A stretch of 64,000 bases of DNA from Heliocidaris erythrogramma (Eukaryota; Echinodermata; Echinoidea; Camarodonta; Echinometridae), in assembly GCA_025617745.1 (NCBI GenBank), contig CM046853.1, positions 52,849,021 to 52,913,020 of the forward strand, given 5' to 3'. The notes beneath the pieces are model-generated. The model was not told where the DNA came from. It searched no databases and saw nothing but the letters and a program-made list of their open reading frames with translations. A program made the translations under genes and the position numbers. Positions 1 to 29,956 of this stretch are shown here, piece after piece; positions within the stretch are counted from its first letter, which is position 1, and every line of letters starts with the position of its first letter.

Positions 1-3000
1 TGACCTCCGACACTGTATAAGAGCAAAATGTTTGTCTCGTCTATTTGTCTTGAGCCACAAGCATTTCATGGCAGGGATAGCCAACTCAGTATGAAAAGTG
101 AACATTCAAATCAAGCTTATTAGAATGGCTGAAAAAAAATCATATGAATGAAACACAGCTTACTGTATTCCTAACATATAGAGCGAATACTAGTTGAAAT
201 TTTCAAGCAACAGCAACTCATAAAAATATGTGGCTCAGAAAAAAACCCATGTCATTGAATGGGTTACATTATTGTATTAATGTACTCATTGCTTTACTAT
301 TTATTTGTTATTAATGCACAACTTTTTATGTTTATGCAGGTTGTATTCAAACAGTGTGATGTTCTGTGTACTAAATATGGCTGAAATTTTAAGAGATTTG
401 TTATTTTCTCTATCTGCTATTTATTACAGGCTGCAGTGTTTTCATTATTTATCAGTTTAGTTATCACCTTTGCTTTGTATTCACTTATTCCGCACTGTTC
501 AAGAGGCTTTTCAAACTTGTGATATTAACATATTTTTTTATTTATTTATATGTGTATATGATCATATTCACTGACTTTGCAAGCCAAGCAAGAATTGCAT
601 TTTAAATACCCCCATCTTCCCATGTTTGTATAACAACCTTCATATTCAGCGTTAACCCTTTCAGAACAGGAATTATTTAATGGCTAAATTGATCATTTTT
701 TTTTCTTCAAATTGGCAACAATATTTTTCTTTTAGTGCTTCGTGGTTCAACTAAGATGTAATGTCCTTGAAAACATTATACATGGTTAGGAATTTTGTCA
801 AAGTTGAAAATTTGTCATTTTGGATTAAAAAAAACAATGATTTTGAACCTCTCAATGTGTTGCCAATTTAAGGATTTAAAGCCTATTCTTGTTTTTTAAA
901 ATTCCTGGCATCACACACAATATGGTCATGCACCAAAAATGGACATAATGTATGCAGAAATTTTTGCTCTTTCTATTCATGCATCTGGTATGTTTTTTAG
1001 AGCTCTGAATCAAAATTTATTCACCGAGTCGAACCACAAAATGTGGTCAATTGTCTCGAAAGGGTTAATGCTTTCAAGTCCCAAAAGATATCTTTTAGTA
1101 TGGCTGTGTTTATATTTTGCTGAAATTCATATTTATGGCAGTGTTGGCAAGGTTGGTTGCCTTTTATATGACTCAGCTTCAGTGAAGCCGTATATTTGTT
1201 GAAGAGGAATACATGCACACAACTAATCTTGTGATGTTGATACTTATTGTGTTGTTTTCCTTTTCTGTAAATTTTGAATTTTTGAAAAAGTTTTGAATGT
1301 ATTTTAGACATGTTAGTCATGGTTTCTTTACAATATGTAGAGTAAGTAATTCCTGAAAAATGGAAGTGTTTGGTTGTGTGGTCACATGGATAGGGATGGG
1401 GATTTATGGAGAGTTGAAGGTTCAAGCCTTGGCAAGGGACTTGTTCTTCACTATGCAAGTTTAAATGAAAGAAAAGAAAAAGAAACTTGTGTGTAATATG
1501 TTGTATCAACATTGGTATCAGACCTACTTTCCTTCATTATGCAACTTTAAATGAAGAAAAAAGTAAAATAAAGGAGACACCTAAATTGTAAATCATCTAA
1601 AAATTGGAATTGGACAAATTCACTCAGTGATTTGATTATCAAAGAAGCAATGGAAATTTGTGTCTCTGACATCTGTTTAATAGCGTATGCAGACATTTAG
1701 TTGTTCATCATGGATTGATCTGCACAGTTCAGAGAAAGCGGAATAGATGGAGTTCAAAACTTTGAAATGATTTTTTAGTATGTTTATATTAAGCAAAGGG
1801 ACTTGATTACCTCAAATAGAAAGTAGAATAGAAAATTGACAAAGTATTGCTATAAATATTGCTTATAGCACATCCCTATTATGGGCAGTGAATGATTTTG
1901 TCTTCATGAGCAAGTACATGCATGTATATATTAAGTATTTTTATTTTGTTGTTGTTGCATTATTTGCCTTCTTAAATTCATACTGTACTGTAATACATAT
2001 TTTATCATTCTAAAGTTTACAATAAGTATTTTAACTCTGGTATATCGAAATCATGATTCTATGAATTTCATCATACTATCAATTTGCTCAGTACTATGAT
2101 TTTAAAAGCACAAATCATATTCAGAGTAATGGATATTATCTCTTCTGTGTCCATGTTTATTATTATTTCTAAAGCTATAAAATAAGCATCTGATGCATTC
2201 TACTGCACTGGTAAATCTTAAATTCATAAGAATTTATCAATTGTCTTCGAAACCTATCTATCCATTTGTAGATGAACTTGTGTGGACTCCTTTGTAACAG
2301 TAACTTATAAAAAATGATACGATAAGGAAGATAGATCAGTAAGTGCCCTATAAAGATTTTGTTTTTCTAATATAGTTAATAAGAAGCACAAATGAAGTGG
2401 GAAGCACAAATACAGCTACTTCGGGCATGGCTAGTATTCATTGATTATATTTGTGAGTGTGTGAATCATATTGAACTATAGATCCTACTCAGTGAAATGT
2501 TTTATTTCCAATTCCCAGTGATTGAATTCAACAAAATGTTTTAGAGGTAATTGTATCAGAGAAAGTACATTTTGTAACAGAAATAGAGGGGGAAAAAAGA
2601 ATGGAAGAAGAAAGGTGCCCTCCATGTGGATAGAAGGTTATAAAATATAATGTGGTTATATGCATGTTCTTTCTGTCATTGTAAAACTTTCGGCAGATTG
2701 ATATTTTAGAAGTAGATGAACTTTGAGCATGTTGCATGCAACATTATTTGGGAAATTGATATATATTTTAGTACATTTTCTCCTCTTCTTTTCTGTAGGA
2801 ATAAAGAGGTTAAAGAATAATTATGAAGTGAGGAAAGGGATATTTGAAGATAGGATATCACAACGGAATATGCATTACATTGCAAGAACCTGTGATCAGC
2901 TGAACGAGGTTGTGGAGTCTGTTTTGTATGAAATAAAATATATATTAAACATAAATGACATTTTGGGTTTTATACAGCTGTATTTTTGTCGTCCTGAGAT

Positions 3001-3421
3001 GAAAAGTATAGGTGAGACCATAATTTTCATTTTATTGAAGAAAACTGTCGGGGAAATTGATTAGGCAAGTCCAATGTGATTGTACAGTTTGTGACATACA
3101 TATCCAAACATAAGGGAGGAGGAACATAAATTAATATCAAAAGTAACATTTTACTACATTTGATTTGACTACATTTGGTCTGACCCAAGGTGAAGTAAGA
3201 ATATTAACATATGTACAATCATTAGGTATACAGAAATCTTTGGTGTGTAATCTCCAATGTATGAAATATATGAATGAAGGCAACACACAGTTTTGTAGCT
3301 ACAAGGGGGCACACGGAGAAGGGGGTACATGTCCCCCACTTGAATGACAATGAAAAAAAAGAGAAAGAAAATAAGGAAAGGGAGAACAGGAAAGGGCCAA
3401 AAAACCCCCCATAATATGACC
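1..3421 (+). repeat. Segmental duplication, left copy
   Basis: This stretch aligns in the same orientation to 44416-48153, to my eye over 90% identical with many small indels. Similarity is already present at base 1, so the copy extends beyond the left edge. It ends at the shared TGACC at 3417-3421, just where AASS coding sequence begins. The right copy lies about 1.6 kb downstream of the AASS stop codon, so this left copy looks like the 3' flank of another AASS copy upstream. Open frames inside (939-1202, 2723-3064 and others) have no recognisable domain and are probably chance. The last part (from 3288) is a hAT-like repeat fragment. Confidence 0.9.
652..1068 (+). mobile_element. piggyBac-like MITE, copy A
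   Basis: A roughly 417-bp element bounded by TTAA on both sides. It begins TTAACCCTTTC and ends GAAAGGGTTAA, so the ends are inverted repeats starting CCCTTT inside a TTAA target. That end structure is known from piggyBac elements. Related copies lie at 45073-45484 (same orientation, inside the duplicated block) and 27251-27662 (inverted, in an AASS intron). No transposase is present. Confidence 0.7.
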
Positions 3422-3570
3422 ATGGAGTCACCATTCTGCCTGTATCATCGGCACCAGCACTTCAAGTCCCTGCGGTTCTCCGGTGATGGCATATTGGTGT
3501 GCTCCATCGAGTTGCCCCGTGAGACCACTATTTCTTTGGTGGTCTCTTGTTCCCTCTTGTGCCTGAACTG
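3422..3570 (+). pseudogene. AASS: AASS exon, damaged (end of lysine-ketoglutarate reductase domain)
   Basis: Reading ATG GAG TCA onward gives MESPFCLY, then GDGILVCSIE, LPRETT and, after a one-base frame change near 3525, FFGGLLFPLVPEL up to a GTAAG donor at 3571. From family knowledge, vertebrate AASS has here PFC-Y-DADQH, GILMCSIDNLPAQLP-EAT and FGDMLYPYVEEM. Three kinds of damage are visible: DAD is replaced by HR, about five residues between CSI and LP are missing, and one base is missing before FFGG. No AG acceptor adjoins the conserved part; upstream sequence is the duplicated block. The exon end is in phase with the next exon. Likely a broken, 5'-truncated exon. A cryptic acceptor near 3394 would keep an open frame up to the frameshift, so splicing cannot be excluded. 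Confidence 0.75.
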
Positions 3571-4401
3571 GTAAGAAAGTACTTTTTGGGTATGTAAAGC
3601 TTGACATCGCAGGGAACTGAGGCCAATTCAAGCATGAAGTTGAGTTCTGATCATTACATTGTGAAAGAAACTGTCTCAAATCCACTGGAAAGGGTTAAAT
3701 AAGTCTATATAAGAATTGGTGTGTATTGTGAGGTTTTGGATTCATCAAAATGGGTATATGGGACTGAACACACATGTGACGTGGATGTTCGGCCCGAGCA
3801 CTTCAGCTATTTCTCGTCATATTTCAAATATGAAATCACTTGATAAGCAATTCTTTTCAGGCGACATTTTTTACTATGATGTTCTTCCAAGCTGACATAA
3901 AAGGACTGAGAAAGCTCACAAATTGTTTTTCACCTTTCCCAGAACTCAACCTTCTCTTTAAACTTGATTTATAAATGGTCGAATAGTTTGGCAACTGTCT
4001 GTTTGCGAGATAGAGCTGGACCTCCTTATTTTCAACATTGTCAGTTGAATGAACCTATTGCCTAAAATTTAGTATTGAGCCAAGGAGTAGGCATTCATGA
4101 AGATCATTGATGTTCAAGTGAGCAAGTGCGAGATCACAATTGGACATGCCATCATAAATTACAATGTTTCTATTTATTTAGAAAGTAAGCCAATGAAGAT
4201 GTTATGTGCTGTCCGCATATTTGATCATTTTATTGTTGCAAATCATTATGCTCTCAATTCTTCATTTTATAGACGTAACGTCATTATACCAGTCTTGGAA
4301 TTTCATTTTCTAACTCTTTTTCTTTTTATGCTTGCAAAAGCTGTTGAGACCAGCTAACTTTAAACGGCAAATATCTTCCAATCTTCAATTTTTCCTTTCA
4401 G
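3571..4401 (+). other. AASS: AASS intron, nothing recognised
   Basis: AT-rich sequence between two AASS exons. The open frame at 4097-4357 shows no domain and crosses no conserved sequence. I see no mobile-element ends. Confidence 0.6.
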
Positions 4402-4461
4402 TTGACATCTGATGCTACCAAGCCTATTAAGGAAGAGAACTTCTCAAGAGTAATAAACGAT
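4402..4461 (+). CDS. AASS: AASS exon: linker after reductase domain
   Basis: A 60-bp exon after TTTCCTTTCAG and before GTAAGTATG, encoding LTSDATKPIKEENFSRVIND. This matches the LLSDATQPL-NFSPVV-D stretch that follows the reductase domain in animal AASS. It joins the preceding exon in phase 0 (PEL then LTSDATKP). The next conserved residues (AV..SNG, then the GxGxxS nucleotide-binding start of the dehydrogenase domain) are not found downstream until 21437. Confidence 0.88.
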
Positions 4462-4640
4462 GTAAGTATGATCTAAATACCTGTGTATGTATTCTTTCTT
4501 TGATGTTTTTGATCAATTACCAGGTATATATAGTAACGAACCATGTGGAATGGTAAAGATGGAAAACTGCATTTTCTTGCAATCATGTAGAATTTTTTCT
4601 TTGTTGGCTGATCTTATGGTCTTTCTCATTTGTGCTTGAC

Positions 4641-4716
4641 GGCAATTCCACGGTAACGGAAGGACATTCAGATACAGTTTGTGTCTGATTGTCCTTTCGT
4701 TACTGTGGAATTACCC
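4641..4716. repeat. Short palindromic element (hairpin)
   Basis: The left arm GGCAATTCCACGGTAACGGA and the right arm TCGTTACTGTGGAATTACCC pair almost fully across a short loop. This looks like a miniature inverted-repeat element or a remnant of one. No target duplication was identified. Confidence 0.6.
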
Positions 4717-6015
4717 TTGACATGTATTGCACTGTTTTCACCCTTCCAAATTAAATAATTGTTATATAACTGTTGACCTCACACTATGAAATGGCCGGCC
4801 ATTCTCTCTCAATACATTCTCATGTTTGACTCATAATTGTTTCGACAGGTCTCAAAGGCCGCTAATTTATTCCTTGGACATTTTATCTTGAAATGACCTC
4901 AGTTAGGATTTGTGAAAAGACTTAAATGAGAAGAAAAAAAAACATTTTTTATATTCTCTGTACAGCATGTGGGTCTATGGCGAACTTAAACTGATCTTGA
5001 TGTTTTTATTACGCTAATAAATTATTGCCAAACCTCTGGAAGAGGTCTCCATAAGAACCCCATTATTATGACATGAGGAAGGACATTCAGTCTTTGGTTT
5101 GCTGGTAAACTAGTTTATGTATTCATACCCGTTGCACATTTAATTCTTTTATTCTCTCATTTTATCGAGTAAATATAACCAACATTCATTATTCCATCAA
5201 TTATGTATCAATACCACATATCAATGAAACATCTTTCTGTATTTCAGATCGAATATCAATATATCACCCACTGTTTGTCCCAACTGATGTGAATTGTACA
5301 TATATAGTAGGTCTGGGCAAACAACTATGCCTGGAGACCGTTAATTCCCTCCTATTAGACAGACAAGGTCATGGGGCTGGCTGACCTACGGAAAATGCAA
5401 AAATATGGTGTTTTCTATCATTTCTATTAACAATTTTCAGAAAGAAGCTCAAAAAATGAATAGAGTGGGAAATTCCATGTTAAAATAAACTTCGAACGAA
5501 ATGAATTGACCAACGATTAGTCAACTTTCTTCATAAGGAACATAGTCTCACGTCAAGACGTCGGCTGTAAAACCGTGTAAATTTATTTTAAAAATGCGCT
5601 TGTTTTACAAATTATAATGCATATACATTTTTTACAAAGCTTTACCAAGGAAGTAACACTTCCCTGGCTTTACAGTGAAATTCAGTTGTAATGAATATTG
5701 TAGTGTATTGTCCCGTTATTTCTGAATACAAATAACAATGAATAAATGAAATAAATTGTGCTTAAAGTCCGAAGGACAACATATTATTTAATCTTTAATG
5801 AGTAAATACTCAGGAGTCAAATAAAAACACCGCAGGATCCAAAAATTTATACTAATATATATATATATTTATATATAATATATACATTAACTGTGTGGAT
5901 ACGTACACCTTCGACCTTCTTTGTTCCTCTTTGTCAATGCCAGCACGTGAAATATGAACATTTTATATTCGAATTGAATTAGCTTGATATGTGGCCCACT
6001 CATTTGGCCTATCCT

Positions 6016-6016
<1 letters not shown>

Positions 6017-6047
<31 letters not shown>
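6017..6047. repeat. Poly-C tract (31 bases)
   Basis: An uninterrupted run of 31 C. Its length in the assembly is likely unreliable. Several shorter C or G runs elsewhere (10071, 10135, 17188, 18944, 21217, 49221) lie inside repeat elements. Confidence 0.9.
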
Positions 6048-6048
<1 letters not shown>

Positions 6049-8480
6049 CCGAAACCAAGGCTGAGCATGAGGATAATATCAAAATACATGTACCCATGTT
6101 ACGTTATGTAGCTAATAAATAACCAGTGACCCCCTGGTATAAAAGTTTTCTAATTATGAAACATTGTTTTGATTGGGAACCTCAATATTCATCCACTCAA
6201 ATTAATATAATTCCCGGCTCCTGAAAAAATATTTCTCAACTACCATGTTTTTCTTTTCTCATGACTGAAATAGCTGTTCTTGGTCAAAAAATATACACCA
6301 GGACCAGGTGTGGAGAAAGTAGAAGAAAGAAGCCATAAATATCCTAAAATTGCCATGACTATTAAACTTTTTAGCATCAGTCCATTAGAACAAATTACAT
6401 TACTTTTACTGAAGGTTTTGTTTAATCTGCGTCACAATTATCAGTTAATATTTTCATGAAGAAGAATTTGATTGAACTAGAGTCTCTAGTAGAGAATTAG
6501 AATGACAGAAATCATTCTAGTGGTTTCAACTTGATTCATTATCTAATCCCTAATATAATATAATAATAACAATATCATAACATTATAATAAATGAAATGG
6601 AGGCGGGATGAAGTGAAGGAAGTGTTGAAGAGACACTAGGAACCACTTTTATTTGCCTTTACTATTAGGGGGTGGTTACATACATGCTGGAAGTCCCCTC
6701 CTTAAAAATAAGGGGTAGATAATTATCTCCCCATCATCCACGGCAAAAAGTAACTCCAATCATTATTACTGGGCATGCATGCAAAATATGAAATAGAAAA
6801 TACCTGTACCATGTGTACTGTAGGGCTGTAAGTATGATGCTGCATGGTGATGGTGTTATTTCATGACACATATGTCCTTTGTGAAATCAGGGAGGTGTCT
6901 CGTTTCCACCTCCCTGGTAAAATGTTCCTCACTAAAAGTATCAACGTCGCCAAATGTGCATCCTAGAAATGAGAGCTTGACCAGCAACATGTATTATAAT
7001 ATTCCTGTAATTTCCCATTGGTGATATAAAAGGAGCACTGAAAACACGATGCTAGAGCAATATAGTAGAAAACCAAGTTCGAAGCTTGAGAAAACGCGCC
7101 AAAGTCATTGAAAAGGTCCACGTGCTTTCTGTTTATTATGCCATATGAATGTGTGTGGCATGTTATATGGATGACACATGCAACTCACTGCCTGTCGGGC
7201 CTGGGCTATGGTCAAGGGAATCGATTGACCTTGTCTCTGAGTGTCTGCAAGTACTATAGTCTCTGATTAGAAAATTTGACAAATTATTTTGTCGAAATAA
7301 CACGAAAATGTGTCTGGTAGTGCATGGACCCATGGGTAGAAGGGGTTGGGGAGGGCAAACTGAGACCAAGTTCCGCAGGGAAAGGGGCAGTTGTTTATCA
7401 GATGTAAAAAAAAAACCGCCTCCATACATTATTATTCTTAGTCCACTGCCTGAACTGTCTCCGTGTATCGCGCGATCGCGATCCTGATCCTAAATTACAC
7501 CCTCAATGCTAACACGATAGGCCAGTCCTTTATCCCACCGATATCCACCCTCGCAGACAGTCTATTCGAATTTGTTCCCGCCCACAGGCGTAGAATTTGC
7601 ATCATTCATGAATGATTACGTAATATTCAGTTTTCAGTTATCGGGTCGATGGGCAGGCCAGAGAGATCTAGGGCATTTTGTACGAGGTACCTCCTTGGGT
7701 ATAAGCCAGTTCGGGGTTAGCGCATGGTACAAATGACCCCAAATATCCACAGATATTTTAGACATGGAGGGTGCCTTTATGTGCACTTCAGAAAAATAAC
7801 TCTGGGAGTGATAGAGGTGCCTCATGAATAGCTTGTGTTTCCCCCTTTAAAAAGAATACTTCCACCTGGATATCATGGAATGCACCATTAGTGCATAATT
7901 GAATAATGATTACATGACATTCATGAGCACATATCGAATATTAGTGTCAGTGGGTTTTAGAATTTGGTACAGATGACCTTTATCTGCTCATGCTCAAATT
8001 GCATCTCCGAAGTGGCTTATTATTAGACAGATATGTTGCAAGGTTTTGAAAAGCGTTGTTCCTTTGGATCTTTTCGTCATTGTAAACCATATATAGGCAT
8101 ATCAAAACAACAAATAGCTTGTACTTTTGTTTAAGGAAAATATCTGTGTTTTCTTTATAGCTCTCATACTATCTCTCATACTAGTAGTATTAGATTTCGC
8201 ATTGAACTGTTTATAACAATAATTAACTTGCCTATATTTCAGTGTTCTGCAATTAATGGGGATTGACCTTTGTTGATAAGTCAATTACCCTCTGTTACCA
8301 CCCCATACATGTTTTGATTTGTATTACTTCGTTCTTTATCTACATGTATTTTATAAATGCTTGTCCCTGTTTTTCTAGTTTTAGTTTCATTCAATCTGTG
8401 GAAATATTAACAGAACCGTATGTTCGGATCACGCCTCTGTTCACACTAACTAATAGGAAACTAATTTTTAAACAGTTTTT

Positions 8481-8680
8481 TAGGCATTACTCCCAGTGTT
8501 AAAGATAGTATGCTCGGTCTGTCAGGAAAATCATCACAAGTCAGAAAAATTGGAACCAGTGGGATTCGAACCTGTCATCTACTGCTTGCAGGGCAGCGAC
8601 ATAACCACCAGGCTATTCTGGTTCACGGCCAAGTCACGATGAACTGAAATCAAATACCCAAGATCCTCATTTTTTTTACT
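8481..8680 (-). mobile_element. tRNA-derived SINE
   Basis: On the minus strand a tRNA-like head begins GAACCAGAATAGCCTGGTGG. It includes a five-pair anticodon-like stem around the loop CCTGCAA, the B-box-like GGTTCGAATCC, and the pairing end CTGGTTCCA. A non-tRNA body (ACTTGTG...AACACTGGGAGTAA) follows. The acceptor arms GAACCAG/CTGGTTC pair. This is a SINE, not a working tRNA gene: the anticodon loop has C at position 33 and the D arm is degenerate. The same family occurs at 8715-8835, 22238-22560 and 35286-35523. Confidence 0.75.
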
Positions 8681-8714
8681 CATTGATATTGAACGGTCCG
8701 CCGTGGACAATAGT

Positions 8715-8835
8715 AAATGAAGAAGCTTAATGGGAGGAATTTTAATGTGTAATTTTTTTTAGGCTTTGCTCCCAGTGTTAAAGATCGTATGCTCGATCTG
8801 TAATGAAAATCACAAGTCAGAAAAAAATTGGAACC
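8715..8835 (-). mobile_element. Partial SINE body, same family
   Basis: Contains the body CTCCCAGTGTTAAAGATCGT, ATGCTCGATCTG and CACAAGTCAG, then ATTGGAACCA where the tRNA-like head should begin. The head itself is missing. It lies next to the more complete copy at 8481-8680. Confidence 0.65.
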
Positions 8836-9435
8836 AAAGAAATTGGAGAAAAAAAAAAATTTATCCAAACACATTGTGTTTGATCTTGAAATACCATCAC
8901 ATTCTTAAGTACGGAAATAAGAAATGCCATAATTTCAATGCGAAAATATCGAAGAAAATTCGTTCGCTAGCATTTTCCATTGGCGTATAGATCCGTAGAT
9001 CCGTACATTCTTTCTTTTCCTTATAGGTTGAAAATTCCAGTTGAAATTCTTGCATATATAAAGTGGCTGGATTCCCAGTCTCCCTCCACACTACAAAATG
9101 TTCCCTTCCCGAGCTGTATATTTCATGTGTCAGCACAATAAGTCCTTTGATTTTAACCTCTTCACATGTGAAACTAATCCCCAGTCCTCAGAATAGCTTA
9201 AACCTCCTGTAAATAAAACTGTCCTACTCTGCCTATACCTTATCACATTAATTCCATCCTAAATAGTATCATTTAACTGAGATAAGTTCCAGAGGTAAAA
9301 CAATGTGAAGGGGGTCAATAAACCCATGGCTATGTCTTGTCCCAAGAGGAAAGGGGTGAAGCTAGTGGACCGCTTGACCACATAAACATATCATTATGGT
9401 ACATTACGTTGGGAGAAATTCTTTGTTCTTTCTCT

Positions 9436-9490
9436 CTTCCTCTCTCTCTCTCTCTTTCTCTCTCTTTATCTTTCTCTCTTTCCCTCTCTG
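9436..9490. repeat. CT-rich microsatellite
   Basis: Run of TCTCTC with interruptions. The overlapping open frame with serine-leucine repeats is an artefact of this repeat. Confidence 0.85.
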
Positions 9491-9957
9491 CCCTCCTGGA
9501 GAGGGGATGGAATGTTTTCCCCCAAAAACATGAGGTTCTGGTATATGTATATAGGGAGGGAGTAAATTGTTGCAGTGCAGATTTGTGATTTTAGGGATAG
9601 AGAGAGGCCATTGATAGTTGTGAGCCCTTTACATATTCACGCCCATGGTTCCGTCCATAACAGTTTATCTAAAATACCATTATATCACCTGTTTATTACT
9701 TGCATTACTGATATTGGTATTGATACTGATATTACAAAATATGTAAATTCGGTAATAATAGGGGATCTGTACCCATATAATTCTCCATTCTGCCAATAAA
9801 GATAATTTGCGACCTTACCAAAATGAGTAAAATGACAGTGTCACGATAATTATCTTGTTACTCAAGTTTATTTTATCGCAACGCTGCCTAACCAATGTTT
9901 AGCCGGTTAATTATCATGATCTCATCATAAACATGACAAATAGTTGTCAAATAGAGT

Positions 9958-10326
9958 CAGCGGGGGCTTAGGCGGATCCGGGCGGACACTTCCGGCCCAT
10001 GCCCCCCTCGCTTTGGAAAGAAAAGTATGCATTTTGACCATAAAGGATCCACCCTTTTGTCGATTGTGCCCCCCCCCCCCTTTAGAATGAAAACTTTTTT
10101 GCAGAGAATTATGGAGGGAAACTGGACCCCATAACCCCCCCCCCCCCCCCCACTGAGCGAATTTTGGAGGTCTGGCGAAAAGAAAATTGTCGCCCCAAAA
10201 ATTTGCGAATTTTCGAGAAGCTGGCAAGACCAAAAAATATGGGTCTAACTTTTCCAGAAGTTGACGAACCTGCATTTGTGTGCCCCCCCCCCTTATATGA
10301 AATCCTGGATCCGCCCCTGAGCGGGG
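9958..10326. mobile_element. Probable non-autonomous DNA element
   Basis: The left edge has CTTAGGCGGATCCGGGC and the right edge CTGGATCCGCCCCTGAGC, which are inverted relative to each other around GGCGGATCC. The interior is G/C-run rich and non-coding. Ends of this type recur in many animal repeat families. Exact ends and target duplication were not resolved. Confidence 0.5.
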
Positions 10327-10460
10327 GCATAATTAATTTGTATTGAGAACTAGAGGGGCGTTGTCATGATTCAAAAATATTCAATTGACAGCAAGAGGAG
10401 CACTATGTCTGTGGCGATATAGCGCTTTTCTGGTTCTCAACTAAACATCTTTGAATTATG

Positions 10461-10677
10461 CTACACTCTTAGAAATATTGGGCAAAATTTTACCCAAATT
10501 TTACCCAACATGAGGGTCCTTATGAGTCCGACCAACTTTTGGGTAAACTTTACCAATTTCATTCTTATTTTTGACCAATGTTGGGTAAATGCATGTAAAA
10601 GTTGAGCAAGATTTAACCAACCTATGCCCAATCTTCATTTACCCAGTGGCATTTACCCAACATTTCTAAAAGTGTAG
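10461..10677. mobile_element. MITE with 22-bp terminal inverted repeats
   Basis: Begins CTACACTCTTAGAAATATTG and ends ATTTCTAAAAGTGTAG, which are inverted copies with a few mismatches. The 217-bp interior repeats ACCCAA and TTGGGTAAA motifs in both orientations. No coding capacity. Confidence 0.8.
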
Positions 10678-12831
10678 CCTCCCCCTGCATGCCGACTTTG
10701 AACCCCTTCAAACTGCCGACTGTTGCCTGCAACACAGAAGTTTCGGTATGCGCTTTAAATAGGCCTGTGATATTTTAAACTTTTCCAAATTCCTAGAATG
10801 TTGATTCCACAACTATACGCTAGCCTTAATCGGGTTGCATTTACGATATAGTGGTGTATGTACGATGTTAGGGTCAAATGACATCTAGTGCTGATAAAGT
10901 CAAAAAAATCATTTTCTTACAAACCGCTGCTCATTTGTCCGATCTTCCATTTATTTTGATCTTTATTTTATTTTATTTTGAAACTTCAACTCTGAAGTTA
11001 TTAACTTTTTTGGATAAAGGATCGTGTATGGCGTGTATAGATCACATCGTTTTAAATGTTTGGTTACAGTTTGCAAAACTGCTGCTCTCTATCTCTCTCT
11101 CTCTCCCAAGTTATCTAATGTTCCATCGGGTGTGATCATTTTTTTAGATAATAACATTTTGGGATAGAAACATATATCATGTATATCGTGCGCATGCCAT
11201 TGGGGTTAATATGGGTCGTAATAATTATTATGGTCACCTATATAGCCTATAGGCTAGCCAAAGATACGTTTTGAAACCTCAACTCACTACTCTTTTTCGT
11301 GTCTGAGTAAATTGCATTATGATACTTCTGGCAAATTTTGTACACCACTTGGTCTACTTTTATATATTTTTGGGGTAAATACATGCGCCTTCCCCTCTGA
11401 AAAAAAACCCCTGAAGATACGCAGAGTGAACATTCACCTAACAAACTTCTCTTATCAACAGGTAATGCATGCGACCTACAATGAAATTTGCTGAGAGTAA
11501 TAATGTCTCTTTGGCCTATATAGGACAAAAAGTATCTTTCAATTTTATGGTCATTTTTAAACATTCTGTAATTCGAACAGATTATGTTATTATAGACCAC
11601 ATGGATAATTTCCGTTCCTGTTGGAACATACACATATTATGTCAGAGAGCCTCAGGTTTAAAGCATTGAGTACCCATTGTCAGCTATTATCCACTACCCT
11701 GAGATAGCCAGACGTTCCCAGAGCCTGAGTATTGAATAGTATCTTCAATGAATTGAGACCAAGGTGATATGAAATGATATGAAGCGACTCATGTCTTTTA
11801 TGCATGCACCTGAGTAAGTTATAAAAAATATTTCAATACTTCTGCTGCTTTTCCTTTAACTACCCTTAACCATTATCAGACAATTCTACATTTTACATGT
11901 TTTAATATCAATCCACGACCAGTTTCACCTTAGACCATACAGACCATGCTTATTTACATGCCAATTAACACTGTCCTAAAAACATATATGGGAAACTTAA
12001 AATTGATATATACATTGAAACTCCCAGACCTCACTACCATACAATTTAATAGCATTGTATATGAACTGATAGCTGTAATCCTTTTTCTTTCACCAAAAGA
12101 CTTTCCGAGCCTGTGCTACTTGCTTGAATTTGTTTTTTAAGTTGTAATTATAAGTGAATCTTATGCTCAGGAATATAAATCATCAACCACATGTACATCA
12201 GTCACGTTACCATTCTAAGTAAAAGTTGGAATTCTTCAGATTTTCCCTTTGGAGGAAATAATTTTTGTCTTACTTGTGTGTACAGTTATTGTTTTCCAAT
12301 AATCTGCCATGCTATTCGATGATACAGTAATTGCAAATCTTCCTGCCATTCAAACAAAATTGTAGTATCATCAGCATATAACCAGATATAAGGCAATATA
12401 GTTATGTAAAAGTTCCTACTTCTGCATTATTTAGATGGCTATAAACATCACTTGCCGAGGAATCAAGTCCCTCATAGAATCTCACTATAATGTTTCTGAA
12501 AATCATTTAAATACATTGCAAATAGCGAGGGGGAGGGTTCTCTATACCTGACGTGAATAAATCTGAATACTTTCCATCGACTGCAACGCATTATTTTGCA
12601 TATTTACAAATGTTATTAATGATACCAAAGGGCTTGCCATTTAGGCCCAGCATCAAATTTTTTAACCATTAGTTTCTGTCATTCAGGTCAAATGCTTATT
12701 GAACATAAATAAAGGCGTTTCTCCTTTCAGATGATCAAGTATCAATTATAAATTATCAATTATCGTCTTCAGAACAAGTATTTGATAAGTTGTTGAATAT
12801 CCTGAACGGAAACATCATGAGCCCAGGACAT
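10678..12831. other. Non-coding intronic stretch
   Basis: AT-rich sequence without recognised genes, splice-flanked conserved peptides or clear element ends. The open frames here have no family resemblance. Confidence 0.55.
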
Positions 12832-12839
12832 GATGAAAC

Positions 12840-13181
12840 CAGTGGCGTAGACACGAACACGCTTTCTATTGTTAGGGGGGGGGCAGTGGCGTATCCAGGA
12901 TTTCCAAATAGGGGGGGGGGCGCGCCAGGAACTATTGATCGCCGTCATGGGGCAGGGGTCTTTGGAAAAATTTTGCTTCTGAAGAAGGGCTGATAGCAAA
13001 ATAGTGCTATATGTGACCAATTTTGAAGCCTATTTAATGAACAATATTTTCAATTGGTATGAGGATTTTTTTTTTTGTGCTGGTTTTTTTTTTGACGGCC
13101 AATAGGGGGGATACGCCCCTGGGGGGTGATGAATAGATCATCCCCCACTAACAATGGATATTATGCGTGTCTACGCCCGTG
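12840..13181. mobile_element. hAT-like MITE with 8-bp target duplication
   Basis: The ends CAGTGGCGTAGACACG and CGTGTCTACGCCCGTG are inverted repeats. The element is flanked on both sides by the same 8 bases, GATGAAAC (12832-12839 and 13182-13189). An 8-bp duplication and CAGTG-type ends are characteristic of hAT elements. A second element of similar type (12884-13121) lies inside it. Confidence 0.88.
12884..13121. mobile_element. Inner hAT-like MITE nested in another
   Basis: Begins CAGTGGCGTATCCAGG and ends GGATACGCCCCTG, inverted repeats related to but distinct from those of the surrounding element. The flanks are G runs, so its target duplication cannot be read. Confidence 0.7.
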
Positions 13182-13263
13182 GATGAAACTGATAGTTCTG
13201 AAACAGTCAATACGCAATGGCTGCAGTGCTAATAAGCATATATCTACACAAAGTGAATGTTGT

Positions 13264-13356
13264 CCAGAATTTTTGGAAATTGCTAAATTCTTGCCTTTAT
13301 TCAAAAAGGGAAAGAAAAATTTGTGTACAAATTACCGCCCAGTTTCCCTAACCTAG
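13264..13356 (+). pseudogene. Fragment of non-LTR retrotransposon reverse transcriptase
   Basis: Encodes PEFLEIAKFLPLFKKGKK followed by NYRPVSLT and a stop. The pattern (V/I)-P-(L/I)-FKKG-(D/K)-x-NYRPVSLT is the conserved start of the palm region in many LINE reverse transcriptases. Only about 30 residues remain; the 236-bp satellite begins right after. Remnant, not functional. Confidence 0.75.
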
Positions 13357-15495
13357 CTCTCTAACCTAGCTCTCTCTGCCAGAGTTTAGGGGAGAGAAGC
13401 ACCTAGGTTTTGCGTCGATTTTTATATTTTACCAAACTTAAATTATCATTACATTGCTATTAATCATATTATACAAATCATTTTTATATATATAATTTCT
13501 ACGAAGCATGTGAATAAAATCTAACTTTTAAAAATCAAAGTTATTCTAAAACCTGACACTCCCCTTACAACCAGACATCTATGCTAGGTCTACGTTTACC
13601 CCTAACCTCTCTCTGCCAGAGTTCAGGGGAGAGAAACACCTAGGATTTGTGTCGATTTTTATATTTTACCAAACTTAAATTCTCATTATATTGCTATAAA
13701 TTATATTGTACAAATCATTTCTGTCTATAGAATTTCTACGAAGCATGTGAATAAAATCTAACTTTTAAAACTCCACGTTATTCTAAAACCTGACAGTCCC
13801 CTTACAACCAAACACCCATGCAGGGTCTACGGTTACCCTGACCTTTCCCTGCCAGAGTTCAGGGGAGAGAAACACCTAGGATTTGTGTCGATTTTTATAT
13901 TTTACCAAACTTAAATTCTCATTATATTGCTATAAATTATATTGTACAAATCATTTTTGTCTATAGGATTTCTACGAAGCCTGTGAATAAAATCTAATTG
14001 AAAAATATGCAAGTTATTCTAAAACTTGACAGTCCCCTTACAACCAAACACCCATGCTAGGTCTACCGTTACCTCTGACCTCTCCCCGCCGGAGTTCAGG
14101 GGAGAGAACCACCTAGGTTTTGTGTCGATTTTTATATTTTACCAAACTTAAATTCTCATTATATTGTTATAAATTATATTGTACAAATCATTTTTGTCTA
14201 TAGGATTTCTACGAAGCATGTGAATAAAATCTAACTTTTAAAACTCCAAGTTATTCTAAAACCTGACAGTCCCCTTACAACCAAACACCTATGCAAGGTG
14301 TATGGTTACCTCTGACCTCTCCCCGCCAGAGTTCAGGGGAGAGATCGAACCATCCAGGTTTTGTGTCGATTTTTATATTTCACAAAACTTAAATTACAAT
14401 TACATTGCTATTAATTATATTGTACAAATCATTTCTGTCTATAGAATTTCTACGAAGCCTGTGAATAAAATCTAATTGAAAATATGCAAGTTATTCTAAA
14501 ACTTGACAGTCCCCTTACAACCAAACACCCATGCTAGGTCTACCGTTACCTCTGACCTCTCCCCGCCAGTGTTCAAGGGAGAGAACCACCTAGGTTTTGT
14601 GTCGATTTTTATATTTTACCAAACTTAAATTCTCATTATATTGCTATAAATTATATTGTACATTATTTTCTACGAAGCATGTGAATAAAATCTAACTTTT
14701 AAAACTCCAAGTTATTCTAAAACCTGACAGTCCCCTTACAACCAAACACCCATGCAGGGTCTACGGTTACCCTGACCTCTCCCTGCCAGAGTTTAGGGGA
14801 GAAGAACACGTATGTTTTGTGTCGATATTTATATTTTACCAAACTTAAATTCTCATTACATTGCTATCAATTATATTGGATAAATCATTTCTATGTATTT
14901 CTACGAAGCATGTGAATAAAATCTAACATTTAAAACTCCACAATATTCTAAAACCTGACAGTCCCCTTACAACCAAACACCCATGCAGGGTCTACGGTTA
15001 CCCTGACCTCTCCCTGCCAGAGTTCAGGGGAGAGAAACACCTAGGTTTTTTGTTGATTTTTATATTTTACCAAACTTAAATTCTCATTATATTGCTATAA
15101 ATTATATTGTACAAATCATTTTTGTCTATAGGATTTCTACGAAGCCTGTGAATAAAATCTAATTGAAAAATATGCAAGTTATTCTAAAACTTGTCAATCC
15201 CCTTACAACCAAACACCCATGCAGGGTCTACGGTTACCCTGACCTCTCCCTGCCAGAGTTTAGGGGAGAAGAGCACGTATGTTTTGTGTCTATATTTATA
15301 TTTTACCAAACTTAAATTCTCATTACATTGCTATCAATTATATTGGATAAATCATTTCTATGTATTTCTACGAAGCATGTGAATCAAATTAACTGAAAAA
15401 ACAAGTTATTTTAAAACCTGGCAGTCTCCTGACAACCAAGAATTAGTAATATAGTTATAATTAGGTATAACCCTGAGCGGTCTAGCCCGAAATTT
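13357..15495. repeat. 236-bp satellite array, about nine units
   Basis: The motif CCAGAGTTCAGGGGAGAG recurs at about 13384, 13621, 13857, 14094, 14331, 14571, 14791, 15022, 15258 and, degenerate, 15491. Spacing is mostly 236-237 bp (220-240). Each unit contains GTGTCGATTTTTATATTTTA, TCTACGAAGCATGTGAATAA and CCTTACAACCAAACACCCAT. Two sub-variants differ after AATAAAATCTAA: one has CTTTTAAAACTCC, the other TTGAAAAATATGCAAG (near 13995, 14475 and 15165). No coding potential. Confidence 0.95.
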
Positions 15496-17997
15496 AGGGG
15501 AGAACACAACCCAAATCTCAATGCCTAGATCCTGCCTACCAGTCTCACATTCACTTTTTAAAAACCTTCTAATATTCCTATGGAATTTCACTTCCTTCCA
15601 TGTAAATATTTGCCAATATCGTGACAATAACTATTTCTTGAATCGTTTTATAAATGCTACAATAACGAATCAAAGAGTTAATAATGATCTATCGCCATGA
15701 AAATGAACGAGATGTCTTTTAAGTGTTACTTGCTTGATGCGTCTTTCCAAAGTAATTTTCAATTGAAAACCTAAAGTGCTGTCGAGCTAAAATTTCAGAA
15801 TTTGAATCCTCTGATATATTATGCTTTGTCATTTCAATTTGATGATTTTACGCCAGGTTCTTATATTTAAAAAAAAATGATCTTAATGTTTCTTCTTACG
15901 CCCTCTAGGATTTGTGTATGTGTATTATGTATTTTTTAATTTTTGTTTGTTTGTTTGTTTTGGGTTTTTTGAGGGGGCTGTCTTCAAAGTGACACATACA
16001 TGTATTTCCATTGTTTCAGAAAGGTTTGTAATATTCAAACTGGACCCCGTCTTATAGAGCTGCGATCGATTCGAATCAATTGCAACTCCTTATAAGTCTG
16101 TAAGATGGGGCCCTGGTCTTACCTATTCCATTTCATGCCATTCATTAGTAAATGTGTGAGATTCGACATAATTTTTATTATTTTACTTTAAAATGATGAC
16201 TATAATTATATTGTTGTGTGGCAGTTGGTCAAGATAACATCCCGACTCAGGTCAATGATCCAACGAAAGAAAATAACCCAAATATCTACAGACAGACGTG
16301 ACAAAATCTATTTTATCTACGACCTTCAATCTATGGATATTTCATTGTAGGCCAATTGTGTATTTGGGGGATACAGATGTAATACTGGAGCGCAAGGGGT
16401 GTCAATGTACCAGACATGAGCACTATGCAAGAACCCATCATTATTATTACCCCGAACTGATAATAATTTCATTTTGTATAAAAGGAAATACTTTGGAAAG
16501 TTACTAACTTTAAGATAGGTTTTGCGGTAAAAATTTAGTTCAGCGTGGTTCTAGGTATAATTTAAGGTCAAAATTGAAATTGTCTATACATCTCTCATAT
16601 AACAACAAAACTAATTCGAATGTTCTTTCACTTAAAAAAGAAAAATAGGTACAATAGGTGTGATTTCCATGGAACTGGCTATAGTAGTTCATTCATATCG
16701 GGTACTTATGGGCAGTTATTTGTTTGAGAGAATGCTTTTATGTCTTTAGTTTAAAATATGGAAGAGAAAATTTAGTCATAAGCCTAACCTATGTTTTTCA
16801 ATCAACTAAAGTTTGAACAATAGATAATTCAAAGGCACTTTGAACTTTGTATATCTTAAGAATGAAAACGACAAAGAAAACATAATTTTTGAAACGGAAC
16901 ATGTTTCGGAGTCATACTCCATCATCAGCCTGATTATTTTACAACAGAGACAGTGCTATATATACTTTCAGATTACATACCAAATAACATGAACAGTTAA
17001 CAATATAAGTTAACAATTTTATATCTGTGTAACATACCAAGATGAATATACATTGGCCCCAGATGATTCAGACTCCTGCATATTATCATTAAATCATTTC
17101 CATGTACTTACATGACTAATTTAAAGACATATACCCAAACACATTTGCCATAAGGGACACTTTACGGGATTTTAGGTACAAATGGTGGGGGGGGGGCATT
17201 TGAAGAAAAAAAAAACAACCTGGTGGAAAATCAACAATCAACAATCTAAGCTGTGGATTGTCAACTTTTCAACATGGGTTTGAAAGATGGAAATCATCAA
17301 CTGTTCAGGAACTAGCAACACTTTTGTATGAGAACTTTTATCTGTCTGTCACTAGAGCATTTTGTATTTAATAATAGCCATTCAAGTTTTATTGGGTTTA
17401 ATCCTATTCTGTACAGGCTTTATGTGAAAGCGCACAAATTTTGTCATGTCACGAGAGTTGTACCTATTTACTTTAAAATGAATTATTTTCTCTCTTTGGG
17501 GAAACAAAATTTGGGGGATACCAGCTGCCACACTCTCTAAATTTCGGCGTTGATGCACGGCAACATCCTAAAGCAATGTTGATCTGTGATAACGGGTAGC
17601 AAACCAAGTCATAAAGTGACAAGAACATGGATGTAATTAGGAATTTCCAAAATACCTAGTAGATATTGAACGATGCTATGGTATGATGAGAGTCTGTAAA
17701 TGTACAAAGGATATTTTTAGCTATTTTTAAATGTTAAACAGAATATTTGTAATTCGTGTAATTGAAATTCAAAGTCTGAACACAGGAAGACAAACGGCAG
17801 GAACAGTCAGAAAGTAAAAGAAATTCACACATTGAAGTGTGCAATGTGGCAATGTAATGATAAATATACTATTAAAAACAACAACAGTATAATAATAATA
17901 ATAATGATAATGATAATATAATAGAACATTTAGAGTCCACATGACTTTAACCTTTCTATGGCAACTGCAGAAGTAATAGAAGCACTGGCAAAGTTAT
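15496..17997. other. Non-coding intronic stretch
   Basis: No gene recognised. Contains a small hairpin at 16042-16112 and, near 16897-16940, a CATGTTTCGG...CATCATCAGCC motif of a type common in invertebrate repeats. Confidence 0.5.
16042..16112. repeat. Short palindromic element
   Basis: GGACCCCGTCTTATAGAG and TAAGATGGGGCCC form imperfect inverted ends around TGCGATCGATTCGAATCAAT. Probably a miniature element of about 71 bp. Confidence 0.55.
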
Positions 17998-18101
17998 ACA
18001 GCTGTAGTAGTAGTAGTAGTAGTAGTAGTAGTAATATAGTATTAGGCCTACTACACTTACTAATATTAGTATTAATATTAGTAGCAGTAGTAGTAGTAGT
18101 A

Positions 18102-18143
<42 letters not shown>

Positions 18144-18338
18144 GAATTATATAGTAATATAGTAGTAGCAGTAGTAGTAGTAGTAGTATAGTAGAAGTAT
18201 AGCAGCAGCAGTAGCAGTGGTAAGTGTATATAGTAGCAGTAGAACTACTGGTAGTAGTAGTAGTATAAAGTAGTATCGTAGTAGTAGTTGTAGTAGTAGT
18301 AGTAGTAGTATAGAGCTCTAGTAGTAGTAGTAGTAGAA
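17998..18338. repeat. TAG/GTA trinucleotide microsatellite, left part
   Basis: Long (TAG)n tract with interruptions. It resumes at 19067-19220 after an inserted element. The minus-strand frame rich in T, L and Y is an artefact of the repeat. Confidence 0.95.
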
Positions 18339-19066
18339 CACGTGGCGTATCTATGGATTCTGGCGCCCGGGGCAAATAAAAAAGTTGCGTCCCCCTACTC
18401 CTTCTTCGTGCCTAAACCTACTTGTACAAGCAAGGGAGCGAAGCGACCGAGCGGCAATTTTTTTGCATTTTTAACCCTAAAAAGCACAATTTTTTGCGCA
18501 TTTTACCCAGGAAATTTTGCAAGTGACCACTGTGCATGCAGTTGAGAAGTTCGAATTTTGTACATTGATAAACGGTTTTCTATTCACGCCCTTCTAACAT
18601 TGGGAGCGAAATTAACGAAAAGTTGAAAGTTGAGATTTATTTTAAATGTTGACCCTCTGCAAATGCTTTATTATGCATTTCATCCTATATTGGAGGCGCA
18701 ATACTTAGCAAGAGGCAGATGAAACTTACAGGTTAGCGAGCAAAGCAACGACATTTTCATCTTTATTTTCAAAATTCTGAACCCTTAAACAACTATTTAA
18801 GAACTATATACCGGGCGCTCGAAATTACGAGATCCTGAAAGACAATAATTATCTGAAGGGACAAAGCGACTGGGCTTTAGAAAATTTGCGCATTTTAAAC
18901 CCTCAAAAACTTTATTTCGAATGCTTTTACCCTACCGATTAGGGGGGGGGGGGCGGGGCGCATAATCCTTAAGAATTGTGCTTTTTCTTTCTCACTTTTG
19001 CGTTCTTTGCACCTCGTCCAAGTGCCACCCGGGGCACGTGTCCCCTGCCCCCTAAATATGCCACTG
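18339..19066. mobile_element. hAT-like element inserted into a microsatellite
   Basis: Left end CACGTGGCGTATCTATGG and right end TAAATATGCCACTG are inverted repeats of the CAGTGGCGTATC type. AGTAGAA flanks both ends (18332-18338 and 19067-19073), consistent with a 7-8-bp target duplication, although the target is itself a TAG repeat. The 728-bp interior is non-coding and carries CCCGGGGCA near both ends. Confidence 0.75.
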
Positions 19067-19220
19067 AGTAGAACTACTAGTAGTATAGTAGTAGTAATAG
19101 TAGTAGTGGTAGTAGCCTAGTAGTTGTAGTTGAAGTAGTATGGTATAGTAGTAGCTATTAGTAGTAGTAGTAGTAATAGTAGTAGTAGAATATTAAAGTA
19201 GTCGTAATAGTAGTTCTACA
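19067..19220. repeat. TAG microsatellite, right part
   Basis: Continuation of the (TAG)n tract after the hAT-like insertion. Confidence 0.9.
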
Positions 19221-19629
19221 TCTACTAAAAAAAAAGCAGCAGAAGCAGAAATACCGAATATTATTTTGCTGGGTGATGCTATACTATTGCTCGAAGTAGA
19301 ACTTGATTTGCCACTTTAAACCACATACCCAAAACTGGTTTTATAAATGCCAGGACACCCAGCTTTATGTACACAACACTGGAACACGCAATGCAGGAGA
19401 ACCACAACTTTCCTTCCATCCTTGGTTGTGGAATGTCTCTGCTCAATTCATGCAAGGACATGTCATGACCCCACTGTTTTTCATGCAGGCTTGCTTTTCA
19501 CAAAATCCTCAACCATACCAAGGAGTTCGGTCCTTGACCAAACCCACCCGCGTGCCCCCCCCCCCCCCCCCATTCATACATCGAAAAGAAGAGAGGAAGA
19601 GAATATAAGAAAGAAAAAAATGGACCAAT

Positions 19630-20275
19630 GAATTTCCAAAGCAGGCGAAAGAAACCTCTAATCGGTGTTCAAGATCCAAGTATTACCAATGCTCCCAGTT
19701 TATACATCTTCAAACGTAAACTGAAGTTTTACTGGAGTAATTATCTAGTTGATTCTTCTTAATTGTAATTATTACATGTATTGTAACATGATTTTTTTAC
19801 AATTTACTACTGTATAGCAACTGTCGACTTGACTCTCCTTATTTCCTTTCCTGTAGCCGGATTTTCTTTTCTTTTCTTTTCTTTTATTTGTGTCGCTTCC
19901 TGAATGTCCTTTTCTTTATATGTATCTCATCCCCTCCCCTCTTTCTGTACATAATCCCTTCTCCCCATCCTTTTAATGATTTAGTTATTTCATGTCTATA
20001 AAAGATACAAACACTTATTTGACAAACAGTTGTTATTTGTTATGTTAGCTCGTTAGGTATATTTTCTTCTATTAAACATTTGTTTTTTCATCTTCTTTAT
20101 GGCTTGCTTTGAGGGACTGACTTTTACAAGCTAAGCTTTACCCAAGGTCTCCTCGTCTTTATGTTTATTTATAATGGATCATTGTTCATACTCAGTATGA
20201 CATTTCATTTTAAATTTGTAAAACTGTGTAACATGTTTCTTGAAAGAAAGACAAATAAACTTGAACTTGAACTTA
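19630..20275 (+). mobile_element. 3' end of a CR1/L2-type LINE
   Basis: Two frames give NEFPKQAKETS and, shifted, APSLYIFKRKLKFYW followed by a stop, the pattern (SLPxxI...S.FK.KLK.Y) that ends many CR1/L2-like reverse transcriptases. A roughly 500-bp 3' UTR follows and ends in AAATAAACTTGAACTTGAACTT, a short tandem tail typical of this clade. 5'-truncated and frameshifted. Confidence 0.7.
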
Positions 20276-20423
20276 TGTGCCATTTAGGTCGATACCCCCT
20301 CCCCAAGATGAAAACGCGTACTGTAAGTTGTTCGTAGACCTGTCAAGTAAAAAAGAAAGGATACATTTTCTTTTTTCATTCCATTTTAGCACACGATAAT
20401 TACAGATATGTATGGACGTGGGC

Positions 20424-20640
20424 AGGCAAAGAGAAGAAGAAGAAGAAGAATAGAGAGAGAGAGAAACTGAGAGAAATGGGGAAAGAAGGCGGGGAGAGAA
20501 AGGGAGAGAGAGAGAGAGAGAGGGAGGGGAAAGAAGGCGGGGGAGAGAGAGAGAGAGAGGGAGAGAAAAAAAGGAGAGAGGGAGAGAGAGAAAGTGAGAG
20601 AGGAGGGGGGAAGAAAGCGGAGAGAGAGAGTGATTTTGCG
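20424..20640. repeat. GA-rich purine tract
   Basis: About 215 bp of GAGAGA/GGGA-type purine strand, including a duplicated GGGGAAAGAAGGCGGGGAGA-like unit. The overlapping long frames are low-complexity artefacts. Confidence 0.9.
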
Positions 20641-21436
20641 AGCTCCTCTCCCATTTGCCCTCTATACTAACAAATCATATTGTAATTTCCTCTGTCATGT
20701 CTGTAGTAAATATTAGATCATACATGCACCAGGGAAATGTCACATTTCCCTGCATGCACCATTGATATTGATAGCTTCACATGTTTTACAAAAAAACATG
20801 TATGAAACAAATCTTTTCCATCATTGCATCAACAGCTAAGAAAATTTATGAAATATGAACTCGCAAGAGTTGACGATTTGTGTTAGATTGATTACAGCTT
20901 CAAGACTTTATGATGTTCTTATTTCTTCTCGGGTTTTACTGAAAGTTTTACTCACTGTTTTCTTTAATTCATCTGATTTTATTAAAATAAACTAAATACG
21001 AGGGTGGACTTTATTTCTCACTCCCTCATTCTATTTATATTTCATACGAATAACAGTATTACCCATCCCCCGTCACTTATCCAGAAGCACACCGTACGAA
21101 CATAAGGCGGAAGTTAAAATACATTACTTTTCTTTTTATCCATTATGCAATGAATACTTAAAAAAAATAAAGATTAACATTTGCAAACTTGTTATTATGG
21201 CTCAAATATTCTTGTTGGGGGGGGGGGGGGGGAGGGAGGGGGTCTTGGAACCCCTTCTTTCGTATCAAGAGGAGCTTAAAATAGCCCAGTACAGTTAAGA
21301 TTAAACTGATTTTATGAAGGCATGACACATGAAATTGTATCATCTATCAAAAAATTGTTTTGGAGTGATCTGACAAGAAATGGCTTTTATTTACTTTTCA
21401 TGATCAATCACTTCCCCTTTGTGTCTTCCTATCCAG

Positions 21437-21547
21437 TCTGTTGCCTCTTCATCTTCATACACGAATCGCCAAGATGTGTATAGAGCATAAGCGACACTTG
21501 GCAACCACTAGCTACACATCGCCAACACTCAGAGCCCTGCAACAAAG
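21437..21547 (+). CDS. AASS: AASS exon: saccharopine dehydrogenase domain, after nucleotide-binding part
   Basis: A 111-bp exon between TATCCAG and GTCAGTG. Frame: last base of a split codon, then LLPLHLHTRIAKMCIEHKRH and LATTSYTSPTLRALQQ. This matches the family segment SLLPYVLHPLVAK-CI, (V)-TASYI-PAL. The exon ends two bases into a codon completed by T of the next exon (QS-AVDAG). The required preceding exon ending in ..VIS was not located. Confidence 0.9.
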
Positions 21548-21842
21548 GTCAGTGAACTTTGATGTACAAAATCTAAAAGGTCGTATGATAGTAATATTCG
21601 TTTCTTGTATAGTTAAGCAATGTGTCTCTGTGCGCATCCAAAGAGCTTTGAATTATAACCTAGGTTCAAGCCTAGCTGCCCCTGATAAAGCACTGAAGCA
21701 TTCAAATAAATCCTTTCTACCAGTATCCATTTACTTCACTTAGGTTGAGTGTGGCAATTACAGATTAATGACTTCCCATACAACATTAATGCTGTTGCAG
21801 AGATTCGAACCCTCTCCTATGTTCTTATGTAACTGAATGTTG

Positions 21843-22006
21843 TACTGTCAAACCACCTGTATAGAAAGACCACACTGCTTGTTTCCCTTGAAAAGTATTT
21901 ATCATTGAAACATGTACTACAGAAACCTGTACATAAAGACCACCTGCTCATAGAGACCGCTTTTCATGTCTCCCTTGAGCAGTCTTTATATACAGGTTTC
22001 GCTGTA
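21843..22006. mobile_element. MITE with TACAGT-type ends, copy 1
   Basis: Begins TACTGTCAAACCACCTGTAT and ends ATACAGGTTTCGCTGTA, inverted repeats. The interior is AAAGACCAC...CTGCTCAT...AGACCGCTTTTC. A second copy lies at 28250-28426. Tc1/mariner-like TA-flanked ends are likely. Both copies lie in AASS introns. Confidence 0.75.
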
Positions 22007-26858: not shown

Positions 26859-26910
26859 ATAGTGCATCATAAACCTGTGTTCCCCCTTTTTATGTACCCA
26901 ATGACAATAG

Positions 26911-29943: not shown

Positions 29944-29956
29944 TTTCTTTCTGTAG

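Follow-up and report, generated by a model that had tools for sequence, protein, structure and literature searches.

Pseudogenes and new gene structures can both arise from partial tandem duplications, and the locus described here, in the lysine-breakdown gene AASS of the sea urchin Heliocidaris erythrogramma, shares features with several systems reported earlier. In the partial-gene tandem duplications of Drosophila yakuba and Drosophila simulans, as far as the sections available describe them, part of a gene is captured and the parental gene is kept (PMC4503668, PMC5460883), which is the arrangement encountered here. The heterogeneous duplications of mosquito ace-1, in the portions of these reports at hand, illustrate that tandem copies may hold the divergence of two alleles (PMC6121789, PMC5137868, PMC10997782). 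Monofunctional saccharopine dehydrogenase (SDH) transcripts of LKR/SDH genes are described for plants and mouse in the accessible part of another source (PMC3017810), and the segment duplicated here likewise spans the SDH half of the gene. Furthermore, neighbouring copies with allele-like divergence are a feature of heterotype false duplications, judging from the available excerpt (PMC9516828). A literature search on AASS, sea urchins, truncated tandem copies and false duplication returned nothing on this locus.

The window, i.e. the whole stretch of 64,000 nucleotides that was analysed, corresponds to C1:52849021-52913020; the genome searched comprised 1.06 Gb in 26 contigs, and the region compared with itself measured 264 kb (the window plus 100 kb fetched on each side). 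Coordinates are window-based, with zero and negative values for sequence that precedes the window; adding 52849020 to a coordinate gives the genome position. U denotes the upstream AASS gene and the left unit, and V the right-hand, 5'-truncated AASS copy. Exons are labelled 1-9 and 11-21, label 10 being unused, so that U has 20 exons. A search of the window for RNA families gave no match. A 12.9-kb contig of the genome carries COX1, which reads well under the echinoderm mitochondrial code (AAA as N, TGA as W), a reading that restores residues conserved in COX1 and points to an echinoderm; the gene order of this contig looks echinoid-like.

Duplicated units and their junction

Self-BLAST of the window paired positions 1-2241 with 44416-46747 (90.6% including gaps, E=0) and 2237-3383 with 46975-48132 (93.7%, E=0), and a global alignment between 1-3421 and 44416-48153 (3247 matches, 117 mismatches, 431 gap columns) agreed with it that the one block copies the other, as the preliminary description had noticed; the same alignment places the end of the similarity at TGACC (3417-3421 and 48149-48153), again as described. 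Base 1, from which the block had been taken to run, is the mere edge of the window: the copy is real, and it reaches left to -22441. Altogether, 23 same-strand collinear blastn blocks pair U -22444..3383 with V 3419-48132; the aligned bases number 15,808, of which 964 are substituted. One of them (V 15869-15975, 31% divergent) lies inside a mobile element and must therefore be a chance match; dropping it (22 blocks left) alters the divergence figures little. The duplicated stretch extends from the middle of exon 7 to 5.3-5.8 kb beyond the AASS stop codon. The two copies are collinear and in the same orientation, the second beginning at the end of the first, and both the right flank and exons 1-6 are single-copy (each of these exons matches once). 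When the right flank (48100-50300) was used as a genome query, none of 78 matches besides its own started before about 49173 (40 of 3390 candidates scored). The interval 49177-49870, about 1 kb to the right of the end of the duplication, is a dispersed repeat, for which that search (likewise 40 of 3390 candidates scored) gave dozens of matches across the genome.

The upstream gene was located by tblastn, using as bait a human AASS sequence, which found upstream exons from -27613 onward and only later exons within the window. U is complete: this AASS gene spans -27688 to -2345, with 946 codons in 20 exons and GT/AG at 19 of 19 introns (exon borders were placed by eye and then verified by translation). 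The sequence to the left of the window, where the preliminary description had advised looking for the last AASS exon and its 3' flank, holds that exon at -2460..-2345 inside this complete gene; U is thus the fuller copy which that description expected upstream of a 5'-truncated one. The U product matches solved AASS chains, which we take to be human, over the LKR domain (3.5e-189, 28-484) and the SDH domain (3.7e-120). PF05222, PF03435 and PF16653 score above the cut-off and PF01262 (AlaDh_PNT_C) under it (21.3 vs 23 bits). Both domains lie in one open frame, as in a bifunctional AASS (LKR/SDH). A genome-wide protein search returned 28 matches, all 28 at C1:52.82-52.89 Mb and all in U or V. 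Two smaller features were seen along U: its exon 13 acceptor (about -17910) is without a 28-bp pyrimidine-rich stretch that V retains at about 21406-21433 (by eye), and a run of 61 C lies in an intron from -19877 to -19817.

The order of the units, the truncation inside exon 7 and the positions of all the genome-wide matches agree with the head-to-tail duplication proposed at the outset. The length of about 44.7 kb then given for it holds for the present right unit; the left unit measures 25.9 kb, and a later mobile-element insertion accounts for 16.4 kb of the right unit. The observation made in the preliminary description is confirmed and its interpretation, apart from these amendments and one at the junction, is supported.

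The parental sequences at the junction are ATATGACCCCTCCC on the left and CACCACCATCGAG on the right (exon 7), and the joined sequence is ATATGACCATGGAG. Only the 3 bp ACC are common to both parents, and the microhomology of five bases (TGACC) first suggested is rejected because the exon parent, as it reads here, matches in ACC alone. V starts at a codon boundary of exon 7. No AG directly precedes 3422, and the coding sequence at the junction is indeed without an acceptor. Conserved AASS coding sequence does follow, in that 3422-3570 aligns to the 3' part of exon 7, but the exon is decayed: its 9- and 15-bp deletions keep the frame and its 1-bp deletion breaks it. The first V codon has changed from ATC to ATG within ACCATGG (3422-3428), in the AASS frame, and a start-like context thus sits right on the junction; about 0.1 kb downstream the 1-bp deletion breaks the frame opened by this ATG. 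The junction is taken as real from the sequence assembly, since there is no N in the 264 kb around it, false duplications are mostly separated by gaps (PMC9516828, in the part available), and a 3-bp join would not be expected from an overlap assembler.

Table 1. Coordinates of the two units, the junction, the exons of V and the inserted element (window-based)
Feature	Coordinates	Strand	Remarks
Left unit U	-22441..3421	+	25,863 bp; 1..3421 is its right end, the 3' flank of AASS
Right unit V	3422..48153	+	44,732 bp; collinear blastn chain to U
Shared junction bases ACC	3419..3421	.	Junction compared with parents 48105-48180 and -22480..-22400; break 3421/3422
AASS exon 7, 3' part	3422..3570	+	No acceptor; 9-, 15- and 1-bp deletions and 6 substitutions vs U; exon alignment, tblastn
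AASS exon 8	4402..4461	+	Identical to U; splice dinucleotides intact
Dispersed mobile element	4782..21147	+	16.4 kb; left end CACTATGAAATGG, 4 bases before the expected start of exon 9; right end lost
AASS exon 13	21437..21547	+	2 synonymous changes
AASS exon 14	23237..23345	+	1 synonymous change
AASS exon 15	23703..23779	+	1 synonymous change
AASS exon 16	26911..27145	+	6 synonymous and 2 nonsynonymous changes
AASS exon 17	28518..28613	+	2 synonymous changes and 1 nonsynonymous; donor GTATAAGT where U has GTAAGTCT
AASS exon 18	29957..30078	+	2 synonymous changes
Exon 19 deletion point	39678..39679	.	212 bp (U -5112..-4901), including the whole of exon 19, gone from V; U/V alignment
AASS exon 20	40860..41036	+	2 synonymous changes
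AASS exon 21 with stop	42709..42824	+	1 synonymous change
V 3' flank	42825..48153	+	Homologous to -2344..3421

Exon losses and the mobile element in V

V is without exons 1-6, 9, 11, 12 and 19. When it was scanned frame by frame with the peptides of exons 9, 11, 12 and 19, the best scores were 26-31, against 41-45 for exons found elsewhere (scores that carry no formal chance level). Nucleotide searches of the 264 kb matched exons 11, 12 and 19 in U only and, for exon 9, recovered in V just 21 bases of the preceding intron; in the genome search these four exons occurred once each (exon 8, of 60 bp, is too short to appear for either copy). By these three approaches the presence of the missing exons in a diverged state is ruled out. 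Exons 9, 11 and 12 amount to 323 bp removed from V, and the join of exon 18 to exon 20 runs into an immediate stop. As assembled, V cannot encode saccharopine dehydrogenase, nor can it serve as a monofunctional SDH, because most of the NADP-binding domain is missing with its exons and splicing together those that are left breaks the frame. It probably yields no functional enzyme in this haplotype, AASS being supplied by U.

The element inserted ahead of exon 9 is dispersed in the genome. A 2.5-kb query from 4780 matched at least nine other places at 97-99%, starting at query base 1-4 (40 of 424 candidates scored); eight of the nine reach the end of the query and one stops at base 2314. The copies on C15, C4, C7 and C2 have the common start CACTATGAAATGG and different flanks. 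In another search, at least ten other places matched from query base 1 or 92 up to 21147 at 95-99%, shorter ones also ending there, and since the C15, C4, C7 and C2 copies continue past the base matching 21147, the V element is truncated on the right. All these copy numbers are lower bounds, 40 candidates having been scored per genome DNA search. Homology to U resumes in V near 21185, so that the breakpoint on the right would fall somewhere from 21147 to about 21185; the right end of the element was lost in a deletion that also took exons 9, 11 and 12. Its insertion in V is later than the duplication. In each of the three stretches used for searching, the V element and the C15 copy share 99% identity. 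Within it lie a 236-bp tandem array (13370-15439) and, near 13.3 kb, a tail that is presumably reverse-transcriptase-like; no inverted repeat was seen by eye between its left end and the cut at 21147. Between 4.8 and 21 kb there are 81 open stretches with a minimum length of 55 residues; of the 45 viewed, the long ones were low-complexity or unremarkable (by eye). A new gene in this interval is rejected, the genome searches showing a dispersed element.

Other repeats were recorded in and around the window. A short element with inverted ends occupies 46748-46974 (+) in V, the corresponding site in U being empty near 2241, and a related inverted piece lies at 49023-49143. A tandem array of units of about 150 bp extends over 37005-37964, with a related array near 160113-162415, outside the window. 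Similarly, a complex of direct and inverted repeats at 60717-64000 has related copies at 116-121 kb, again outside the window.

Constraint, history and rival explanations

Between U and V, the nine complete exons show 3 nonsynonymous changes over 843 sites and 17 synonymous changes over 246 sites (codons split by introns are left out of these counts), with no indel in 1,103 bp; Ka is 0.0036, Ks 0.069 and Ka/Ks about 0.05, and all GT/AG dinucleotides are retained. Non-exon sequence has diverged by 0.064, at a rate of 0.206 indels for each substitution; if the chance block is left out, the values are 0.062 and 0.210. A V that evolved neutrally along its whole branch should carry 27-28 nonsynonymous changes and 7 indels, as opposed to the 3 and 0 observed, the joint probability being 1.8e-12 (4e-12 when the chance block is excluded). 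The relaxed Ka and the indels in former exons that mark a neutral pseudogene are confined to the exon-7 stub, where 3 nonsynonymous changes and 3 deletions give 6/149 against 3/1103 in the nine exons (Fisher p=1.6e-4; the stub substitutions were classed by eye, its 112 nonsynonymous sites are a 3:1 approximation and the counts are small). With one, two or three events dropped, the excess stands at p=9.3e-4, 5.1e-3 and 0.025, respectively. Synonymous changes are not in excess in the stub (3/37 vs 17/246, p=0.73, site numbers approximate). Because the nine exons carry 17 synonymous changes, 3 nonsynonymous changes and no indel, and the stub 3 deletions and 3 nonsynonymous changes, V did not spend the greater part of the U-V divergence as a neutral pseudogene. 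The neutral change since the loss of constraint on the nine exons has a 95% bound of about 0.5% when omega is fixed at 0.05, a value chosen by the analyst. Judged by eye against human, the three amino-acid changes divide into one that points to V, one that points rather to U and one that is not assignable. Substitution divergence is uneven along the units, with 3.6% in the 3' part vs 8.1% elsewhere (Fisher p=2e-29); leaving out the chance block gives 3.6% vs 7.9% (p=1e-26).

The explanation that we regard as probable, with good confidence, is a real head-to-tail duplication whose right-hand copy is now inert and whose exons 8-21 were long shielded from decay. The copy would have been born from a break joined with little homology, by end joining or template switching. 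Ka/Ks and the identity of the element suggest that exons 8-21 were shielded for most of the U-V divergence, either because the disabling events in V are recent, or because functional AASS alleles on duplication-free chromosomes exchanged sequence with V to the right of the junction, or both. The exon-7 stub, welded to the junction, would have decayed meanwhile, as such exchange cannot renew it. Against this explanation, the uneven divergence is unexpected from one duplication without later exchange, and the changed exon 17 donor of V fits plain decay. Within the explanation two histories fit, namely that the exons of V were useful and then recently disabled, or that the copies differ by allelic divergence from birth or through later crossing-over to the right of the junction. 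V is inert as assembled under either of them.

It is quite possible, at somewhat less than even odds, that the duplication or a later exchange brought together alleles already several percent apart, in which case the low Ka/Ks would be inherited and V would never have been functional alone. Urchins are highly heterozygous, the available part of one report giving 3.47 and 4.40% for Arbacia lixula and about 3 to about 5% for other urchins (PMC11310861), and a value of 3.22% being given for a brittle star in the portion at hand of another (PMC11310086). The divergence blocks (3.6% vs about 8%) and the bound on neutral change point the same way, and the ace-1 duplications, as far as the cited text covers them, are a precedent for the pairing of alleles. 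The stub is the obstacle: if the duplication were very recent, it should not outpace the rest, and its 6 events compare with about 1.0 expected at 0.5% neutral change (P=0.0007), unless they reflect repair of the junction, from which the stub changes could partly stem.

The decayed stub fits better with V exons that were once useful, and it accords with allelic divergence only if exchange followed an older duplication or junction repair did the damage. A specific form of such usefulness would be that exons 8-21 of V formed an alternative 3' half for AASS, dependent on U for the promoter and exons 1-7, selected for most of the U-V divergence and recently destroyed by the mobile element, with intact haplotypes perhaps still segregating. 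The splice from U exon 7 to V exon 8 would be compatible (both phase 0), the nine exons keep GT/AG and a low Ka/Ks, the stub decayed and the other exons did not, and copies of the element elsewhere are up to 99% identical to it. Nevertheless, this proposal is unlikely: V would be redundant, as U owns a complete 3' half; exons 9, 11, 12 and 19 are missing as assembled, with the instant stop at the 18-20 join; and the exon 17 donor is altered. The high identity of the element to other copies is compatible with both histories, and the insertion could be older than this identity implies if the V element was the source of the C15 copy. Between the two histories we lean towards allelic divergence, because it requires no unseen transcript; the 3-5% heterozygosity of urchins together with the 3.6% and roughly 8% blocks also favours it.

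That V is the AASS of the other haplotype, set beside U by the assembler as a heterotype false duplication, is very unlikely. Urchin heterozygosity (in the accessible part of PMC11310861) comes near the 3.6% of the 3' part, and a low Ka/Ks is what alleles would show. Against this, the join lies in ungapped sequence and shares 3 bp, not a read-length overlap; the stub carries three deletions; four exons were lost, through an element insertion with its deletion and through the 212-bp deletion, which is not expected of a functional allele; and the 5' part diverges by 7.9-8.1%. Lastly, an unconstrained pseudogene ever since the divergence is hardly credible for V, promoterless and truncated as it is, with its exon losses and changed exon 17 donor, as the deficit of nonsynonymous changes and indels would require gene conversion confined to coding exons, which is rejected since Ks (0.069) resembles the non-exon divergence.

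Comparison with known systems

The event itself is ordinary and of a known kind; what is unusual is the preservation of exons in a broken gene. The contrast between preserved exons and a decayed stub can distinguish function after duplication from exchange with functional alleles, and it calls for caution, in that, in a species with high heterozygosity, a low Ka/Ks of a truncated gene copy is by itself no proof of function. Unlike the heterotype false duplications outlined in the excerpt available (PMC9516828), this locus has no gap, a 3-bp junction, exon losses and a decayed stub. Monofunctional SDH, in the part of the source consulted (PMC3017810), differs from V in that V is without most of the exons of the NADP-binding domain. 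The ace-1 reports, in their accessible portions, concern locus duplications holding different alleles (PMC6121789, PMC5137868, PMC10997782), whereas V is truncated and non-coding as assembled. Compared with the partial duplications of Drosophila, within what the available sections cover (PMC4503668, PMC5460883), the AASS locus of this urchin is set apart by a join from intergenic sequence to the middle of an exon, by the lack of an evident chimeric gene and by later damage from a large element.
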